From the NCBI GenBank assembly GCA_008974985.1, contig BFAS01000036.1, positions 1 to 40,995 of the forward strand: a stretch of DNA of 40,995 nt, read 5' to 3'. Made by a program: the position numbers and the translations under genes. Within the stretch, counting starts at the first letter, position 1. Every line of letters starts with the position of its first letter. Of the stretch, positions 24,959-34,439 are shown piece by piece. The notes beneath the pieces were generated by a model. That model did not search any database. It saw only the letters and a program-made list of their open reading frames with translations, and was not told the origin of the DNA. This DNA is from a bacterium MnTg02. Its GTDB lineage: Bacteria; Pseudomonadota; Alphaproteobacteria; Rhizobiales; BFAS01.

Positions 24959-27900
24959 ATGAGTGTTGAAGCGAGCGGTGACCGCACCATGGCGTCGGGA
25001 CGGGTGGAGGGCGCGAAACATATGATCCTGGCCGGAGTCCCGGAAGGATTGGACGCACTTGTCCTTGCTGATCTCGTCCGCAATGAGGAGCAAACAGAAG
25101 CGGGCAAAGCCGCTGTACTTCTTCATATTGCAAGGGACGATAAACGCCTCGCATCGCTCAGAGCATGTCTCAAATTTTTTGCGCCTGGCGTTCGCATCAT
25201 CAGTTTTCCGGCTTGGGACTGTGTCCCTTATGACCGCGTGTCGCCGAACGCCGAGATTTCCGGCCGCCGTATTGCCGCGTTGGCACAGCTTGCGAATAAT
25301 CGCCGGAAACAACCTCTCATCGTTCTAAGCACTGTGAATGCTGTTTTGCAACGCGTACCGCCAAGGGAAACCATCTGTTCTGCCATGTTGCGTCTCAAGC
25401 CCGGCGACGTGACGGGCATGGATGCCCTTGTCCAACGCCTTCAAGCAAGTGGATTTTTGCGCACCGGGACCGTCATGGAACTGGGCGAATTCGCCGTTCG
25501 CGGTGGCATTCTCGATATCTTCCCGCCAGGGCGGGGACGCCCAGTGCGGCTGGATTTTTTCGGCGATACGCTGGAATCGATCCGTGCCTTCGACCCGGCG
25601 ACGCAGCGCACCAGCAGCGCGGTCGAAAAATTAACTCTGCTGCCGGTCTCAGAAATTCCCGGCGGTGGGGATGTGGTGAGCCGTTTCAGGTTACGTTATG
25701 TGGAACTGTTTGGCACGGTGACGCGAGAAGATCCGCTCTATCAAGCGATATCAACCGGGGCCCGTTACCAGGGTGCGGAACATTGGCTGCCGCTTTTCTA
25801 CGAAAAGCTTGAAACCATTTTCGACTATATTCCGGGCGCGACGGTGACCTTCGATCACCTCGCAGAGGATGCGAGAGCGCGCCGTCTCGAACAGGTGCGG
25901 GATCATTATGAGGCGCGGGTTGACGCGCTTGAGCAAAATTCGTTTGGGGCGCCGCCCTATAACCCGGTTCCACCGCAAGATCTTTTTCTTGAGGACCATG
26001 AGTGGAGCTCACTTCTTGAGACCAAGCCGGTCCGCTTCTTTACCGCGTTCGAGGTGCCGGACAAGACCGGTGGTCTTGACGTGATGTCTTTTAAGGGCCG
26101 TCAGGGTAGGGCGTTCGCGGCGGAGCGCAAGACGGATGCCGCTCAAGTTTTCGATGCAGTGACCCGGCATATTCGCGACTTGCAAGCCGCGGGCAAGCAG
26201 GTGGTTATCGCATGTTGGTCGGCGGGGGCTCGGGAACGGTTGAAGGCGCTCTTGGCGGATCATGGTGCTCCTGAAGGGCAACTGGTCGAGTCATGGCAGG
26301 AGGTCTTAAAATTACCGGCTACGCAACTCGCATTTGCTGTGCTTGGCGTTGAGACAGGGTTTGAAACACCGAATTTTGCAATTATCGGCGAGCAAGACAT
26401 TCTGGGCGATCGGCTCATCCGGCGACGGCGCCGCGCCAAACGTGGCAGCGAAGTCTTGTCGGAAGTGGCAAGTCTCGGCGTTGGCGATCTTGTTGTTCAC
26501 GCTGATCACGGGATCGGCCGCTTCGAGGGCCTTAAAGCCATCGAGGCGGCGGGCGCTCCCCACGATTGCCTGGAGCTTATTTATCACGGCGGTGACCGGC
26601 TCTATTTGCCGGTTGAGAATATCGAGCTTTTGACGCGCTATGGCAGCGACGACACTGGCGCCCAACTTGACCGGCTTGGCGGCAGCGGTTGGCAAAGCCG
26701 CAAGGCAAGGCTGAAACAACGCATTCGCAATATGGCGGAAAAACTTCTCAAGGTCGCCGCCGCGCGCGCGTTGCGGGAAGCACCGGTGATGACGCCGCCG
26801 GACGGGCTTTACCAGGAGTTTTGCGCGCGTTTTCCCTACGAGGAAACCGAGGACCAGGAGACGAGCATCGCGGCGGTGCTTGACGATTTGGCGGCCGGTC
26901 GGCCGATGGATCGTCTGATCTGTGGTGATGTTGGCTTCGGCAAAACCGAAGTTGCCCTTCGATCCGCGCTCGTGTCGGTTATGGCGGGCAAGCAGGTTGC
27001 TGTTGTCGTGCCGACGACCTTGCTTGCGCGCCAGCACACGCAAACCTTTTTAGAGCGGTTTCAAGGTTTGCCAGTGCGTATCGCGCAAGTCTCCCGATTG
27101 GTATCGGCCCGTGATCTTGCCACAGCGAAGAAGGATATCGCATCGGGCGAACTCGATATTGTGATCGGCACCCACGCACTTCTCGGCAAATCGATCAAAT
27201 TCGCAGATCTTGGATTGCTGATTATCGACGAGGAGCAGCATTTCGGTGTGCAGCATAAGGAAAGTCTGAAACAAATGCGCGAGGACATTCATGTCCTGAC
27301 GTTGACGGCGACGCCAATTCCCCGGACCTTGCAATTGGCGCTCTCGGGCGTTCGTGAACTCTCGCTGATAACGACGCCGCCCGTGGACCGGTTGGCTGTC
27401 CGCACGTTCGTTACACCGTTTGATCCTGTCATTTTGCGCGAAGCCCTGCTGCGTGAGCGCTATCGCGGCGGACAGAGCTTCTTCGTGTGTCCGCGCATTT
27501 CGGATCTGGATGAAGCAAGCGCCTTCCTCACCGAACATGTGCCTGAATTGAAAGTAGCGCGGGTGCATGGAAAAATCGCGCCCGGTGAGCTTGAGGACGT
27601 CATGAATGCATTTTACGACCGGTCGTATGATGTCCTTTTGTCCACGACGATCGTTGAATCGGGGCTGGATATTCCGACGGCGAATACGCTGATCGTCTAC
27701 CGGGCGGATATGTTCGGCTTAGCGCAGCTCTATCAATTACGGGGCCGTGTTGGCCGGTCCAAAATCCGGGCTTACGCGTTTTTCACAATTCCGGCGAATG
27801 CGAAATTGACGCCTACGGCCGAAAAGCGGCTCAAAGTTTTGCAATCGCTGGATACGCTTGGCGCGGGGTTCTCGCTGGCCAGTCACGACATGGATATTCG

Positions 27901-28498
27901 CGGTTCCGGAAATCTGCTGGGGGAGGAGCAATCTGGCCATATCAAGGAGGTCGGCTTCGAGCTTTACCAGTCGATGCTTGAGGATGCCGTCGCGGCACTT
28001 CGGGGCGGCGATGGTTTGCAGGCCGAGGATCAATGGTCGCCGCAAATTGCCATTGGAACATCTGTGTTGATTCCGGAAAAATATGTTCCCGATCTGCAGT
28101 CGCGCCTCGGTCTTTACCGGCGTCTCTCAAAGATCGAAACGGGAGAGGATATTGAGGAATTTGCGGCGGAGTTGGTCGATAGGTTTGGTGCGCTGCCCGA
28201 AGAGGTCAGACATCTGCTTGATATTGTGCGCATTAAGAGCCTTTGCCGGCAAGCCGGTGTTGAGCAGGTCGACGCTGGTCCAAAGGGTGCGGTCTTCACC
28301 TTTAGAAATAAGAGCTTTGCCAACCCCGAAGGCTTGATCGCCTTGGTGATGGAGAGCCCGGATGTTGTCAAAATTCAACCGGATCACAAGCTGATATTCA
28401 GGGCGAATTGGGAGACGTCCGACGAGCGTCTTGAGGGTACGCGGCTCCTCGTTAAGCGTCTGGCGGACATCGCTAGTGGTGCGAAATGCGCTGCGTAA
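24959..28498 (+). CDS. mfd: Transcription-repair coupling factor Mfd
   Basis: An 1179-residue protein with the full Mfd architecture. An N-terminal UvrB-homology module (IISFPAWDCVPYDRVSP, GEFAVRGGILDIFPPG) is followed by the RNA polymerase interaction domain (LGVGDLVVHADHGIGRFEGL). The RecG-like translocase comes next, with Walker A GDVGFGKTEVA (about residue 658), DEEQHFG (about 757), TATPIPRTLQLALSGVRELS and STTIVESGLDIPTANT, and then the C-terminal TRCF domain. It removes RNA polymerase stalled at lesions and recruits the UvrA machinery. It overlaps nothing and is followed by a short convergent gap before the FrnE-like gene. Confidence 0.97.
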   Translation: MSVEASGDRTMASGRVEGAKHMILAGVPEGLDALVLADLVRNEEQTEAGKAAVLLHIARDDKRLASLRACLKFFAPGVRIISFPAWDCVPYDRVSPNAEISGRRIAALAQLANNRRKQPLIVLSTVNAVLQRVPPRETICSAMLRLKPGDVTGMDALVQRLQASGFLRTGTVMELGEFAVRGGILDIFPPGRGRPVRLDFFGDTLESIRAFDPATQRTSSAVEKLTLLPVSEIPGGGDVVSRFRLRYVELFGTVTREDPLYQAISTGARYQGAEHWLPLFYEKLETIFDYIPGATVTFDHLAEDARARRLEQVRDHYEARVDALEQNSFGAPPYNPVPPQDLFLEDHEWSSLLETKPVRFFTAFEVPDKTGGLDVMSFKGRQGRAFAAERKTDAAQVFDAVTRHIRDLQAAGKQVVIACWSAGARERLKALLADHGAPEGQLVESWQEVLKLPATQLAFAVLGVETGFETPNFAIIGEQDILGDRLIRRRRRAKRGSEVLSEVASLGVGDLVVHADHGIGRFEGLKAIEAAGAPHDCLELIYHGGDRLYLPVENIELLTRYGSDDTGAQLDRLGGSGWQSRKARLKQRIRNMAEKLLKVAAARALREAPVMTPPDGLYQEFCARFPYEETEDQETSIAAVLDDLAAGRPMDRLICGDVGFGKTEVALRSALVSVMAGKQVAVVVPTTLLARQHTQTFLERFQGLPVRIAQVSRLVSARDLATAKKDIASGELDIVIGTHALLGKSIKFADLGLLIIDEEQHFGVQHKESLKQMREDIHVLTLTATPIPRTLQLALSGVRELSLITTPPVDRLAVRTFVTPFDPVILREALLRERYRGGQSFFVCPRISDLDEASAFLTEHVPELKVARVHGKIAPGELEDVMNAFYDRSYDVLLSTTIVESGLDIPTANTLIVYRADMFGLAQLYQLRGRVGRSKIRAYAFFTIPANAKLTPTAEKRLKVLQSLDTLGAGFSLASHDMDIRGSGNLLGEEQSGHIKEVGFELYQSMLEDAVAALRGGDGLQAEDQWSPQIAIGTSVLIPEKYVPDLQSRLGLYRRLSKIETGEDIEEFAAELVDRFGALPEEVRHLLDIVRIKSLCRQAGVEQVDAGPKGAVFTFRNKSFANPEGLIALVMESPDVVKIQPDHKLIFRANWETSDERLEGTRLLVKRLADIASGAKCAA

Positions 28499-28520: not shown

Positions 28521-29183
28521 TTATTCCGCCGCGCCTTGCTGCGCTTGCTCTGCTGTAATTTGCGTTATCGCCTCGGCAAGGCCTTCCGCGGGCTGAGCAC
28601 CGTTAATCAGGCCCGCATTGGCGATGATAAAGGCAGGCACTCCGCCGATGCCGAGCTTGTGGGCTTCCTCCACTTCGCGTTTGACATCCTCTAAATCCAC
28701 ATCGCTTTGAAGCTTTTGGCAAACCTCATCGCTGTCCAAACCCACATCGCGAGCCGCGCCTGCGAGCACGTCTTTATCGCCAATATCTGCGCCCTCGACA
28801 AAGATGAGCGAGAAGAGCCTCTCAGCGACCTCATTTTGTTTGTTTTCAAGCGTCGCCCAGCGAATGACCCGGTGCGAATCGAGCGTATTGGGAGACTTGC
28901 GAATCTTATCGAAGGCAAAAGCGATGCCTTCCTCAGCACCCGCTTGCTCAACGCGCGCATAGACTTTCTTGGCGCCTTCCTCTCCAAATTTGCGGGTTAA
29001 ATAAAGCTGCCGGTCGATTCCCTCGGGTGGGATCGTGGCATCCAACTGGAACGGATGCCAAAAAATTTCCCTATCGGGCTGGCCCAATATCTCAAGGGCG
29101 CGCTCCAGCCGCCGCTTTCCGATGAAGCACCAGGGACACAATGTGTCCGAGACAATGTCAATGCGAAGCTTTTTTGCAGTCAC
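28521..29183 (-). CDS. DsbA-family oxidoreductase, FrnE-like
   Basis: A 220-residue thioredoxin-fold protein of the DsbA/FrnE/2-hydroxychromene-2-carboxylate isomerase family. IDIVSDTLCPWCFIGKRRLE carries the active-site pair Cys16 and Cys19. A helical insertion (about 45-160) and the cis-proline segment GIGGVPAFIIANAGLINGAQP follow. There is no signal peptide, so it acts in the cytoplasm, unlike true DsbA. The substrate is unknown. The gene is convergent with mfd. Its upstream region contains the structured repeat at 29214-29337 in the opposite orientation, only about 30 bases from its start codon. Confidence 0.9.
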   Translation of the reverse strand: MTAKKLRIDIVSDTLCPWCFIGKRRLERALEILGQPDREIFWHPFQLDATIPPEGIDRQLYLTRKFGEEGAKKVYARVEQAGAEEGIAFAFDKIRKSPNTLDSHRVIRWATLENKQNEVAERLFSLIFVEGADIGDKDVLAGAARDVGLDSDEVCQKLQSDVDLEDVKREVEEAHKLGIGGVPAFIIANAGLINGAQPAEGLAEAITQITAEQAQQGAAE

Positions 29184-29415: not shown

Positions 29416-30756
29416 TTAAGCGAGAGCCGCCGACCAGGCTCTTTCAATCAGACGCGCGGGCGTATCGCCGAATTCGTACCCTGCGACGCCTGTACACAGG
29501 TTCACATTGACGGGGGCATGATGACCTTCGATCGCGAATTCAGTGTAATGAATGACACTGGCAATTCGTTTTACGGCGTTCATTGCGAATTCCGGAGGTG
29601 TATCCGGCAGGACAACGACGAACTTGTGCCCGGCATACCGGGTTGCCAAATCCTCGCCCCGGACCAGATAGCCAATCACTTCGCCAATTTGCCGGATCAC
29701 CCTGTCGCCGCCTGCATAGCCCATCAGAGCATTGATTTGCTCTATATTCTGAATGGCGAAGGAGGCGATGCTAAATGTCTGACTGGTCCGCTCCGTATCG
29801 GCGATGATCTGCGCGAGATGTTCGAGAAGAAAGCCGCGATTATAAAGACCGGTCAGCGCATCGTTTGTCGCGAAATGCTTGGCGGCTGAGTAGACATGGC
29901 GAAGCGTGTCGCGAAATCTCAGTTCGCGAATAAGCATCACAGTCCGCAATTCGAGTTCATTGGCCAGAACGGGTTTGAATAGAATATCCGTAACGCCGCA
30001 CCCGTAAGCTTCCTGCGGATTGTCCAATACAGACTTCTCCGCGAGTAGCAACACCGGCACATTGAACATCCGCGAATTGCGGCGCAGCTCTGCGACAAAT
30101 TCCAGACAGGCTGAAGGATTGGCGCCAACATCCATTAATATCGTGTCGAATTTCTCGCGCGAGAGATAATCCATCGCGGTAGAAAAAGAGAGTGCGCCGA
30201 CCAGGGTTGCTTTTTTCGACAAAGCATTTTCAGCCATTCCATAGCTTGACGCATCGCCGAGGAACAAAACCTTGGCATTGTCGATTTGCCGTGGAGGGGT
30301 GACGGGTTCCGGAGCATCGACACCATATTTAGCCGACGTATTCAGACGGCGGATAAGCTCCTCGTGCATGGTATTGAGGCGCACAAGGGCTTTGACGCGG
30401 TGACAGATTTGCGCGGATTGTATCGGCCCGAGCAACAAATCATCGATGGCCGTTAGTTCGCTATTGATGTTCAGCTCGCGACTGCCGCCGATCAGCATAA
30501 TGCGCATACGGCTTGCGAGCGTGCTGTCTTTAAGGGTTTGAGCAAGGGCCAGAAAGGAACGCGGATTATTCTGCGCTTCGATCGAATCCATGTTCAAGAT
30601 AACGACATCAGGCCGCCGCCGCCCAGTAAGTTCGGCGGCGCTTTGAGTGATGTCGCCGGTATAACTTTCGAAGCCCTTTTCATGAAGGGCGCTCGCAATG
30701 TCCTCTTGAGCGGGCTTCGAGTCGCCGACAATGAGTACGCGAGCCGCACTGTTCAT
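29416..30756 (-). CDS. PleD/PopA-like REC-REC-degenerate GGDEF protein
   Basis: A 446-residue protein with the domain order of PleD: receiver 1 (about 5-120), receiver 2 (about 155-275) and GGDEF (about 290-446). The GGDEF signature is replaced by AGHKF (375-379), and the metal-binding Asp of the first strand is missing (FAIQNIEQIN), so cyclase activity is unlikely. The allosteric I-site RGED (Arg366, Asp369) is intact at the correct five-residue spacing, so c-di-GMP binding is likely. Receiver 1 has Asn in place of the phospho-acceptor (VILNMD); receiver 2 keeps Asp in TILMDV and Lys in LFKPV. This pattern and length resemble Caulobacter PopA, a c-di-GMP effector that promotes CtrA degradation. 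A CtrA box lies upstream. The orthology is inferred. Confidence 0.85.
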   Translation of the reverse strand: MNSAARVLIVGDSKPAQEDIASALHEKGFESYTGDITQSAAELTGRRRPDVVILNMDSIEAQNNPRSFLALAQTLKDSTLASRMRIMLIGGSRELNINSELTAIDDLLLGPIQSAQICHRVKALVRLNTMHEELIRRLNTSAKYGVDAPEPVTPPRQIDNAKVLFLGDASSYGMAENALSKKATLVGALSFSTAMDYLSREKFDTILMDVGANPSACLEFVAELRRNSRMFNVPVLLLAEKSVLDNPQEAYGCGVTDILFKPVLANELELRTVMLIRELRFRDTLRHVYSAAKHFATNDALTGLYNRGFLLEHLAQIIADTERTSQTFSIASFAIQNIEQINALMGYAGGDRVIRQIGEVIGYLVRGEDLATRYAGHKFVVVLPDTPPEFAMNAVKRIASVIHYTEFAIEGHHAPVNVNLCTGVAGYEFGDTPARLIERAWSAALA

Positions 30757-30918: not shown

Positions 30919-32577
30919 CTAAATTTGTTGGAGAAGGGCGTCGCGACGCACATGGCCGCATTCGTCACGCGGAATTTGCCGCACCAAAACAATCTGTTCC
31001 GGCTGCTTGAAGGGGGCGACATTGCGATTCTCTAGGTAGGATTTGAGCGCTTGCAACGACGGAGAAGCGCCTGGTGCCGGAACTGCCGCCGCTAAAATAC
31101 GCTTGCCCATGACCGGGTCGTCAACCACGAATACCGCGGCGTCATCGAAACCGTCATATCCGGCATAGAGCAAATCCAATTCTTCTTCGCGCAACACTGT
31201 CCCGCCATGATAGATGACGGCATGCGGCGGTGCGCAGAGAGCGCTATTTGCTGCATCCTCGACAAGTGTGCAGCGAATGCCGGTGTGCACCCATGGGTTG
31301 GATGAGTTGCGCGAGATATGACCCAATTGCGTCAACGTTGCGCTGTTGGGTACGGAAAGGCCCCGTATATAGAGTGAACCGGCCATCGCCCTGCTATTTG
31401 ATCCTGTATCTTGAATGCGGCCACGCACGCGTGTTTCCAGCAGCACCAGAGGGCCATGCTGGCCATCCAGGGAGTGAACGCCGCCAAGCTCGAGAGCAGC
31501 CGGGTTTGCGCCTGCATGGCGGGCCGTGATGTGACAGGCCATGTCATTCAGATTGCGGATATCATAGACCGGAACAGGCGGCGTTTCGGACGCTATCGCG
31601 ATTGTTGTGTTGGCTTCCGGCCAGCCAACGGAACCGAGACGCGTTAATTCCAGCTCGCCGGATACAAGCGCACCATCTCTCAGCAAAGTCTCGGCGATGG
31701 GAGCCGGTAGGGCCGTATAGCTTATCTCTTCATCGCAAAGTTGCCGGAGGAAGCCGTCGTAATCGAATGGATGGTGCTGACTAAGATGGGTGCCCGAGAG
31801 TAGCCACGGGACAAAAAGGCCGGTGATACCGACAATATTCGTAAGCGGATAGGGATTGAGGAGGCGGTCCGCTATTGTCACATCGGCGGCGAGAACATGC
31901 TGCAGGCCGGCCGCAATCAATTCGCGGTGGGACCATAGGACCGGTTTGAAGCCATCCGATGTGACGGTCCATAAGACCAGAGCGACATCATCCAAATCAT
32001 TCTCGGGAAACTCATTGAAGATGTCCAAGTCAGTTGAATATGAGATGGTTGGATCAAACAGGTCCGATATAGGTGTCTGGCCATCTGCCAAATTAGTGCC
32101 AACGCCATAGATAAAGCGGACATTCACATGACGAGCCGCCAGTGCGCACATCATGTCGCCATGGCTGTATCCGGCAAACTCATGGACGGATATGATCCCT
32201 TTGACGGGCATATGCACCAGTGCTTGCTCAATCTCGTGGGCGCGCCACAGCATAGATACTGGGCAGGCGATGAGCCCGGCCCTCATGGCACCAAGTATAG
32301 CGAGGGGAAGCTCGGCTGTATTTGGCAGCTGAATAGCGATCGCGTCACCCGGTTTCAGCCCGTGAGTAAGAAACCGCCTGGCGAGTTGGTCGACAATGAC
32401 GTCAATGCTCCGGTAATCCAGCCAAGCCGGGCAGCCAAGTTGATATTCGGCGCTTACTGCCGCGTTTGAGAGAGCAGAGGCTTCAGGATGCTGGGCCGCC
32501 CAAAAGCGCAGAAGTTCGTCAAGCGTCCGCTGCTCCGCTACGTGCGCGGGTTCTGGATGAGTTGAATCTGTTGACAT
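30919..32577 (-). CDS. ANL-superfamily (acyl-CoA synthetase-like) protein with degenerate catalytic motifs
   Basis: A 552-residue protein with the overall layout of AMP-forming acyl-CoA ligases: LDYRSIDVIVDQLARRFLTHGLKPGDAIAIQLPNTAELPLAILGAMRAG at the N-terminus, and ELDLLYAGYDGFDDAAVFVVDDPVMGKRILAAAVP near the end. The P-loop TSGTTGxPKG is replaced by TVTSDGFKPVLWSH (204-217). No YGxTE motif is visible, the hinge RGD block is absent, and the catalytic lysine of the terminal PRxxxGK motif is replaced (PRDECGHVRRD, about 536-546). It is therefore probably inactive as a ligase, or works differently. No frameshift is seen, so it is a maintained open reading frame rather than an obvious pseudogene. 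It lies between the PopA-like and YejA-like genes. Confidence 0.75.
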   Translation of the reverse strand: MSTDSTHPEPAHVAEQRTLDELLRFWAAQHPEASALSNAAVSAEYQLGCPAWLDYRSIDVIVDQLARRFLTHGLKPGDAIAIQLPNTAELPLAILGAMRAGLIACPVSMLWRAHEIEQALVHMPVKGIISVHEFAGYSHGDMMCALAARHVNVRFIYGVGTNLADGQTPISDLFDPTISYSTDLDIFNEFPENDLDDVALVLWTVTSDGFKPVLWSHRELIAAGLQHVLAADVTIADRLLNPYPLTNIVGITGLFVPWLLSGTHLSQHHPFDYDGFLRQLCDEEISYTALPAPIAETLLRDGALVSGELELTRLGSVGWPEANTTIAIASETPPVPVYDIRNLNDMACHITARHAGANPAALELGGVHSLDGQHGPLVLLETRVRGRIQDTGSNSRAMAGSLYIRGLSVPNSATLTQLGHISRNSSNPWVHTGIRCTLVEDAANSALCAPPHAVIYHGGTVLREEELDLLYAGYDGFDDAAVFVVDDPVMGKRILAAAVPAPGASPSLQALKSYLENRNVAPFKQPEQIVLVRQIPRDECGHVRRDALLQQI

Positions 32578-32654: not shown

Positions 32655-34439
32655 CTAGGGCCTTGCCTCTGCCCACCACGAATCGAGCCGATAGCCGTAT
32701 AATGATGCTTTATCAGGATGGCGCAAATGATTCCAGCGCGCCACCCACTGGCGCGGCAAGTGGAACAGCGGCAGGACGTAGCGGCCGGACAGCAGAACCC
32801 GGTCGAGAGCTCTGACGGCGGAAACGAATTGAGTCCGGTTTTTTGCTGCGAGCAAGGCGTGGATCATGGCATCGACGGCGGGGCTTTGAATGCCGGCAAA
32901 GTTGAATGTGCCCTCGGTTGCCGCGGCTTTGCTGCTCCATCGGAAATTCTGCTCGTTTCCTGGTGAAAGAGAAGCCGTCCAGTGATTTTGGATCATGTCG
33001 AAATCATAGGAGGTCTTGCGCCGCTGATATTGTGATGAGTCCACCTGGCGAATCTCGGCCTCTATGCCTGCTCGCTTAAGGGCGCGGGCAAAACTCAAGA
33101 GCAAACGCTCCTGGGCGCGTGTCGCGGCGAGGATTTCAAACCGGAAAGGTTTTTGGCTGGCTTTGTGGATAAGTTTGCCACCCTTGAGCACAAAGCCCGC
33201 ATTCTCGAAAAGAGCGAGCGCTTGACGCAGGTTCCTCCGATTTCGGCCGGTTCCGCTGCTGACGGGCGCTTTATGTGTTCCGTTCAGAACGTCGGGATCG
33301 ACCTCATTAGCAAAGGCGGCCAAAAGTTTGCGTTCATAATCGTCCGCCGGCCGGCCATGAGAGGACAGCTCAGAACGGGAGAAATAGCTCTGCGTGCGTG
33401 AATAGAGCCCGTGATAAAGGTTTTTGTTCATCCACTCGAAATCGAAGAGCAGGGTGATGGCTTTGCGCACGCGCTTGTCGGCGAAAATCGGCCGGCGCGT
33501 ATTGAACACAAGCGCCGACATGCCGGCCGGGATCGCCAGATCAAATTGTTCCTTTTCGACGCGCCCATCCTTCGCGGCCGGAAAATCATAAGCCAACGAC
33601 CATTGTCCGGGATCGGTTTCGGAGCGGATGTCAATTAGACCCTTCTTGAACCCCTCGAAAAGTGAATTGCTGTCGCGGTAATAGTCGAAACGGATTTCGT
33701 CAAAATTGAACCGGCCGCGATTGGCCGGGATGCTATGTCCCCAATAATTCGGATTTCGGCGGTAGGCGATGCGCATGCCTGGATCGATCTTGTCAACCAG
33801 ATAGGGGCCGCTGCCGATGGGTGCTGTTAGGCTCGTTTTTTCAAACGACTCTGGGCTGACATGGCGTTTCGGCAGGATCGGCATCAGGCCCATAATCAGC
33901 GGCATTTCCCGGTCGCCATCCGCGCTGAAGTGAAATTTGATTGTGTCGCTGCCGATCCTCTCGATCCGCGCGACCTTAGCGTAATAAAACCGGTGATTGG
34001 GGCGCCCTTTGTCGCGCAGCAGCGCGTGGGAGAAAACCACATCGTCTACCGTTACCGGCGTGCCATCCGAAAAAGCTGCTTCCTTGCGCAGCGTAAACGA
34101 TACCCAACTTCGATCATCGGGTGTCTCGACGGTTTCGGCCAGCAGGCCATAGAGCGAGAAGGGTTCGTCGAATGCGCGCGCCATCAGGCTTTCATAGACA
34201 TAGCCGCGAATTCCGGCCGCCGAGACGCCTTTGATGATGAGCGGATTGAGGCTGTCGAAACTGCCAACAGCCGCAAGATTTAAGCGCCCGCCCTTGGGCG
34301 CGGCTGGATTGACATAGGAGAAGTGTTTGAAGCCGGGGCCGTGCTTGAGAGAACCATGCATGGCGATCCCGTGCGCGGGCTCGGCCGTGGCGGGACTTGC
34401 AAAAAGCACAAGCGCGGCAATGGCGAAGAGGTATCTCAT
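32655..34439 (-). CDS. yejA: Oligopeptide-type ABC transporter substrate-binding protein, YejA-like
   Basis: A 594-residue family 5 extracellular solute-binding protein. A signal peptide (MRYLFAIAALVLFASPATAE) is followed by HGIAMHGSLKHGPGFKHFSYVNPAAPKGG, a block typical of YejA, the binding protein for microcin C and certain peptides. Further landmarks are LNPLIIKG, FSDGTPVTVDDVVFS, GSGPYLVDKIDPGMRIAYRRNPNYWG and FRWSSKAAATEGTFNFAGI. It should bind peptides in the periplasm. No permease or ATPase (yejB, yejE, yejF) lies within the window on either side, so it is an orphan binding protein here. The specific YejA assignment is by resemblance. Confidence 0.9.
   Translation of the reverse strand: MRYLFAIAALVLFASPATAEPAHGIAMHGSLKHGPGFKHFSYVNPAAPKGGRLNLAAVGSFDSLNPLIIKGVSAAGIRGYVYESLMARAFDEPFSLYGLLAETVETPDDRSWVSFTLRKEAAFSDGTPVTVDDVVFSHALLRDKGRPNHRFYYAKVARIERIGSDTIKFHFSADGDREMPLIMGLMPILPKRHVSPESFEKTSLTAPIGSGPYLVDKIDPGMRIAYRRNPNYWGHSIPANRGRFNFDEIRFDYYRDSNSLFEGFKKGLIDIRSETDPGQWSLAYDFPAAKDGRVEKEQFDLAIPAGMSALVFNTRRPIFADKRVRKAITLLFDFEWMNKNLYHGLYSRTQSYFSRSELSSHGRPADDYERKLLAAFANEVDPDVLNGTHKAPVSSGTGRNRRNLRQALALFENAGFVLKGGKLIHKASQKPFRFEILAATRAQERLLLSFARALKRAGIEAEIRQVDSSQYQRRKTSYDFDMIQNHWTASLSPGNEQNFRWSSKAAATEGTFNFAGIQSPAVDAMIHALLAAKNRTQFVSAVRALDRVLLSGRYVLPLFHLPRQWVARWNHLRHPDKASLYGYRLDSWWAEARP

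Follow-up and report, generated by a model that had tools for sequence, protein, structure and literature searches.

The locus raises one question: does the GGDEF protein encoded in the window, the 40,995-nucleotide stretch of alphaproteobacterial DNA analyzed here, still synthesize c-di-GMP, or is it, as PopA of Caulobacter is, a protein that has kept the binding site for the product of the enzyme it resembles? Caulobacter PopA, which is defined by micromolar c-di-GMP affinity, RcdA binding, localization to the pole and delivery of CtrA to ClpXP, responds to c-di-GMP by setting off the breakdown of this cell-cycle regulator. The initial annotation, which was made from the sequence alone, had called it PopA-like.

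The GGDEF domain has lost its catalytic residues and kept its I-site

The gene and the landmarks of its C-terminal domain are as follows.

29416..30756, minus strand: popA ortholog, a REC-REC-GGDEF pseudo-cyclase of 446 aa (ORF, Pfam, PleD alignment, tree)
29419..29877, minus strand: degenerate GGDEF domain, residues 294-446 (Pfam, PleD alignment, model)
29755..29757, minus strand: A334, replacing the metal-binding Asp, PleD D327 (PleD alignment)
29650..29661, minus strand: I-site RGED, R366-D369, equivalent to PleD R359-D362 (PleD alignment and family alignment)
29620..29634, minus strand: degenerate A-site AGHKF, residues 375-379, over PleD GGEEF, with E370 changed to K378 (PleD alignment)
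29566..29568, minus strand: R397, the third I-site residue, equivalent to PleD R390 (alignment; contacts from PMC7288161)

Pfam reported GGDEF (1.2e-24) together with Response_reg in the ORF. The closest solved structure was PleD, spanning residues 4-440, and the predicted model (pLDDT 85) likewise had PleD with c-di-GMP as its top PDB match. Pfam, the PleD alignment and the model all placed the REC-REC-GGDEF domain order at full length in the protein. It resembles Caulobacter crescentus PleD in domain order, fold and I-site residues; PleD differs in that its metal ligands, its GGEEF motif and the acid pocket of its REC1 are all intact, and in belonging to a separate clade.

The alignment to PleD bore out two earlier observations. 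GGDEF has become AGHKF and the metal-binding Asp is lost, with AGHKF lying over GGEEF and A334 over D327, and RGED is kept at the I-site spacing, R366-D369 aligning on R359-D362. Both metal ligands are gone from the domain (A334 and K378). The c-di-GMP contacts of PleD are R359, R390 and D362 (PMC7288161). The window protein is a dead diguanylate cyclase, in which the catalytic residues are lost and the c-di-GMP-binding I-site is retained; judged from these residues, it very likely binds c-di-GMP.

Some variant GGDEF motifs keep activity, among them that of Campylobacter CbrR (SAEKI), for which low c-di-GMP output is reported (PMC8779298), and the window protein retains N342 and D351, which are equivalent to base-binding residues. 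It is nevertheless highly improbable that the protein is an active cyclase working with a non-canonical A-site, given that A334 and K378 replace the metal ligands and that these positions vary in the family whereas the I-site does not. Campylobacter jejuni CbrR is similar in having two receivers, a non-canonical GGDEF domain and an I-site that binds c-di-GMP, but differs in its I-site (KGRD), its A-site and its reported low c-di-GMP production (PMC8779298). It also has predicted phosphorylation sites in both receivers; the trees described below did not include it.

Neither receiver domain is a credible phosphorylation target

Two receiver domains precede the GGDEF domain.

30373..30747, minus strand: REC1, residues 4-128, a pseudo-receiver with N55 at the acceptor position and the acid pocket and Lys lost (alignments)
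29917..30279, minus strand: REC2, residues 160-280, a pseudo-receiver with D209 in the acceptor column and the acid pocket lost, G167 (Pfam, alignments)

The PleD-type phosphorylatable set of REC1 (DD, D, T, K) is absent, its places being taken by G11, N55, G90 and G110. In REC2, G167 replaces the first acidic residue and is G in 27/27 family members and in 41/43 proteins overall, and many relatives have N, S, E or A in the D209 column. A contrast had been drawn between a first receiver without the acceptor Asp and a second that keeps it. It stands for the two residues themselves, N55 in REC1 and D209 in the acceptor column of REC2, but not for what they might do: both acid pockets are lost, and D209 is not a credible phospho-acceptor because the REC2 pocket is gone and the position is variable among relatives. 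On these grounds phosphorylation at D209 was rejected, and from the alignments it is unlikely.

The protein is an ortholog of Caulobacter PopA

The C. vibrioides genome (G277) was recognized by its PleD, which matches the sequence of the solved PleD in the PDB at 100% identity. A profile of the window family matched a second full-length protein there (8e-76) above PleD (4e-58), and this was the only match in that genome besides PleD. It carries R357, D360 and D55, of which we take R357 and D55 to be the positions known from PopA work. Published descriptions of PopA make it a PleD paralog whose RxxD is intact and whose A-site is degenerate. BLASTP aligned the window protein to C. vibrioides PopA with 29% identity over 431 aa (3e-42).

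Compared with C. crescentus PopA (CC1842 / CCNA_01918), the window protein has the same REC-REC-GGDEF order and nearly the same length (441 aa versus 446), a degenerate A-site (ATEVF in PopA versus AGHKF), an I-site RxED with the R390 equivalent, the same clade, the same popA-frnE-mfd gene order and a PleD paralog elsewhere in the genome. The differences are the 29% identity, N55 in REC1 versus D55 in PopA, the retained N342 and the upstream neighbors, which in the window are a substrate-binding protein and ACS1; the function of the window protein is, moreover, a prediction from sequence. REC1 of Caulobacter PopA also lacks the acid pocket, though D55 is kept.

In a tree rooted with other GGDEF proteins, from which the long-branch rows L008, L013, L023, L118 and L119 were left out, the window family and Caulobacterales PopA formed one clade (100/100), sister to PleD (100/98), and the window protein lay outside the PleD clade. 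A tree without outgroup separated 28 PleD sequences from PopA plus the window family at 100/100; the five long-branch sequences took unstable places in it. Forcing PopA together with Caulobacteraceae PleD cost 77 log-likelihood units (p-AU 2e-5), and forcing it together with all PleD cost 47 (p 5e-6). A PleD-derived PopA was thus rejected by AU tests under the model used. In view of the long-branch warning that the tree program gave for PopA and PleD, gene order is the important independent line of evidence.

A PleD copy inactivated recently and independently in this lineage, with a merely convergent likeness to PopA, would have the domain order seen here, and the best named NCBIfam model for the protein is indeed PleD, although below its cut-off. 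The tree, the AU tests, the RxED signature common to the window family and PopA (PleD mostly has I, V or A where these have E) and the common frnE-mfd neighborhood make this very improbable. RGED itself is kept in all full-length members of the window family. The protein is an ortholog of PopA, beyond mere likeness: the phylogeny with PleD and PopA that the initial annotation had proposed places its family in the PopA clade, apart from PleD, and the tree, the AU tests and the shared popA-frnE-mfd order together raise "PopA-like" to orthology.

Clear relatives occur in 13/61 same-order genomes, the window's own counted, and several relatives hold eroded popA copies or none. Among named genomes, Rhodobium orientis and Prosthecomicrobium hirschii, the latter a dimorphic bacterium, carry the gene.

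The popA neighborhood is conserved from Caulobacter to Hyphomicrobiales

The following genes flank popA in the window.

24959..28498, plus strand: mfd, convergent neighbor, arranged likewise in Caulobacter (locus comparison)
28521..29183, minus strand: DsbA/FrnE-like oxidoreductase, adjoining popA in Caulobacter too (Pfam, locus comparison)
30919..32577, minus strand: ACS1, a pseudoenzyme resembling acyl-CoA synthetases, upstream of popA in Hyphomicrobiales (Pfam, locus comparison)
32655..34439, minus strand: oligopeptide/nickel-type substrate-binding protein, conserved upstream neighbor (locus comparison)

In C. vibrioides, popA is followed by a FrnE/DsbA-like gene, 41% identical to that of the window, and then by convergent mfd, as in the window. 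Genome G101 has the popA-frnE-mfd order too, and so do loci across Hyphomicrobiales. The window genome's own PleD, with an intact GGEEF, lies directly beside divK, where the window protein does not; the popA and pleD paralogs therefore occupy two distinct places.

On the upstream side, the substrate-binding protein and ACS1 precede popA in Hyphomicrobiales, often with ACS2, an intact second ligase, between ACS1 and popA. ACS2, an AMP-dependent ligase, holds this position in many relatives (L032:6357-7925, L040:6321-7895 and others) and is absent at that place in the window. ACS1 lies upstream of popA in nearly every popA-bearing Hyphomicrobiales genome with a long enough contig. It lacks the P-loop, the TGD Asp and the catalytic A10 Lys in 15/15 loci examined, and is predicted from its sequence to be catalytically dead. 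About half of the sampled Hyphomicrobiales have ACS1, next to the substrate-binding protein.

A strict functional linkage of popA and ACS1 was considered and rejected, as about ten genomes with no popA found at the locus have ACS1 all the same. We claim no functional pair for this reason, and we regard the link as positional, since ACS1 persists without popA and is also absent beside popA in Caulobacter.

The I-site residues are the most conserved positions of the GGDEF domain

Across 43 proteins at the popA locus, R366 (100%), R397 (100%) and D369 (98%) were the top three conserved of 153 GGDEF-domain columns, coinciding exactly with the PleD contacts R359, R390 and D362; the A-site and metal positions were variable. 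The chance that three random named columns would be exactly the top three is near 2e-6, relatedness being ignored in this figure as in the column-conservation count itself. An I-site held constant beside an A-site and metal ligands that are not kept in this way is the pattern expected if selection acts on c-di-GMP binding and no longer on catalysis.

Six popA-locus copies are eroded, and in them no columns but the I-site trio were kept in 5/6 or more, in an alignment that is uncertain away from the motif. Pfam GGDEF was not reported at E 0.1 or better in 4/6 of these copies (L222:4911-6098, L226:5004-6356, L229:2367-3416 and L231:2560-3816). These four popA-position proteins still hold the I-site Arg, Asp and second Arg, and are possible cryptic c-di-GMP receptors on the strength of those residues. 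In genome G043, a second GGDEF protein with a PleD-like score lies between frnE and the eroded popA (L226:2693-5029, plus strand).

Eroded copies, or none, in several relatives are what would be expected of a decaying gene without function. This reading is improbable in the extreme for the window protein, if slightly less so than an active cyclase or a convergent PleD copy, as its reading frame is unbroken and even the eroded copies conserve the I-site trio above all else. The near-exclusive survival of the three I-site residues instead offers a clean case of an enzyme domain of which little but the ligand-binding site is left. An extension is that the Hyphomicrobiales popA locus would be the source of a class of database-invisible c-di-GMP receptors, with three I-site residues and no recognizable GGDEF domain, which would form with the pseudoenzyme ACS1 a signaling unit of two dead enzymes. 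We regard this as a long shot; if true, the popA/ACS1 unit would couple the cell cycle to lipid or acyl metabolism.

Partner genes of the ClpXP pathway

The window genome encodes CtrA (421 bits, curated cut-off 350) and RcdA (212 bits, curated cut-off 170). CpdR, ClpX and ClpP were not found in its draft, which is 92.9% complete in 378 contigs. The search for rcdA, cpdR and clpX suggested at the outset thus succeeded for rcdA only in this draft, the other two being present in relatives: CpdR in 12/12 popA-carrying relatives tested and ClpX in 6/6. A CpdR probe based on the rhizobial protein gave one clear match in each of the 12 relatives and in Caulobacter. It gave no match in the window genome, where short receiver proteins were also viewed as CpdR candidates and none fitted. 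Secondary ClpX-profile matches of about 440 aa in relatives, probably HslU, are missing from the window genome as well; the absence of these, clpP, clpX and cpdR most likely reflects assembly gaps. The genome also holds four closely similar ChvI-like response regulators (contigs C375, C21, C15 and C298), three of them nearly identical.

RcdA and CpdR were present in all popA-carrying relatives tested. RcdA, however, occurs in 56/61 genomes, many of them without popA, and Sinorhizobium meliloti is reported to have RcdA and CpdR1 without PopA (PMC11500502, 2024). Because both proteins also occur where popA is absent, their presence is not specific, and we give that of RcdA little weight.

Proposed role of the window protein

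Taken as a whole, the best explanation, and one we hold to be likely, is that the window protein is a Hyphomicrobiales PopA ortholog that would bind c-di-GMP at its I-site and act most likely through an RcdA/CtrA-ClpXP output. In this scheme, an ancient PleD duplicate would have lost diguanylate cyclase activity and phosphorylation and kept the product-binding I-site. A rise in c-di-GMP, made by the separate PleD and other cyclases of the window genome, would lead a c-di-GMP dimer to bind R366, D369 and R397 and so change the protein's position or partners, with the two pseudo-receivers then serving as an output surface. Orthology points most to the output of Caulobacter PopA, in which RcdA, and via RcdA CtrA or other substrates, would be brought to CpdR-primed ClpXP. 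REC1 of Caulobacter PopA is reported by Ozaki et al. (2014) to bind RcdA, with the receiver acting as output; the strong divergence of the window REC1 from that domain counts against an RcdA-binding output. In Caulobacter PopA, c-di-GMP binding at the I-site alters localization or partner binding (PMC3764195, PMC10212136).

Orthology does not guarantee the output, because Hyphomonas neptunium has a PopA homolog and its CtrA is nevertheless not controlled by proteolysis (PMC7200025). By orthology alone, the chances of an adaptor role in ClpXP proteolysis appear about evenly balanced, and delivery of CtrA to ClpXP is plausible. A PopA ortholog that binds c-di-GMP for a client other than CtrA/ClpXP, such as the neighboring pseudo acyl-CoA synthetase or a polar process, is a less probable but serious possibility: the H. 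neptunium case, the near-constant position of ACS1 upstream of popA in Hyphomicrobiales and the predicted catalytic loss of ACS1 itself speak for it, while the genomes that keep ACS1 without popA at the locus, the absence of ACS1 beside Caulobacter popA and the co-occurrence of RcdA and CpdR with popA speak against it.

Known PopA proteins come from Caulobacter and related bacteria; the ortholog described here belongs to an order in which the model species, S. meliloti, reportedly has none (PMC11500502). Our results point to a duplication of PleD and PopA older than the split between Caulobacterales and Hyphomicrobiales, followed by loss or erosion of popA in many lineages. The cultured carriers Rhodobium orientis and Prosthecomicrobium hirschii make an ancestral c-di-GMP-dependent proteolysis of CtrA testable.
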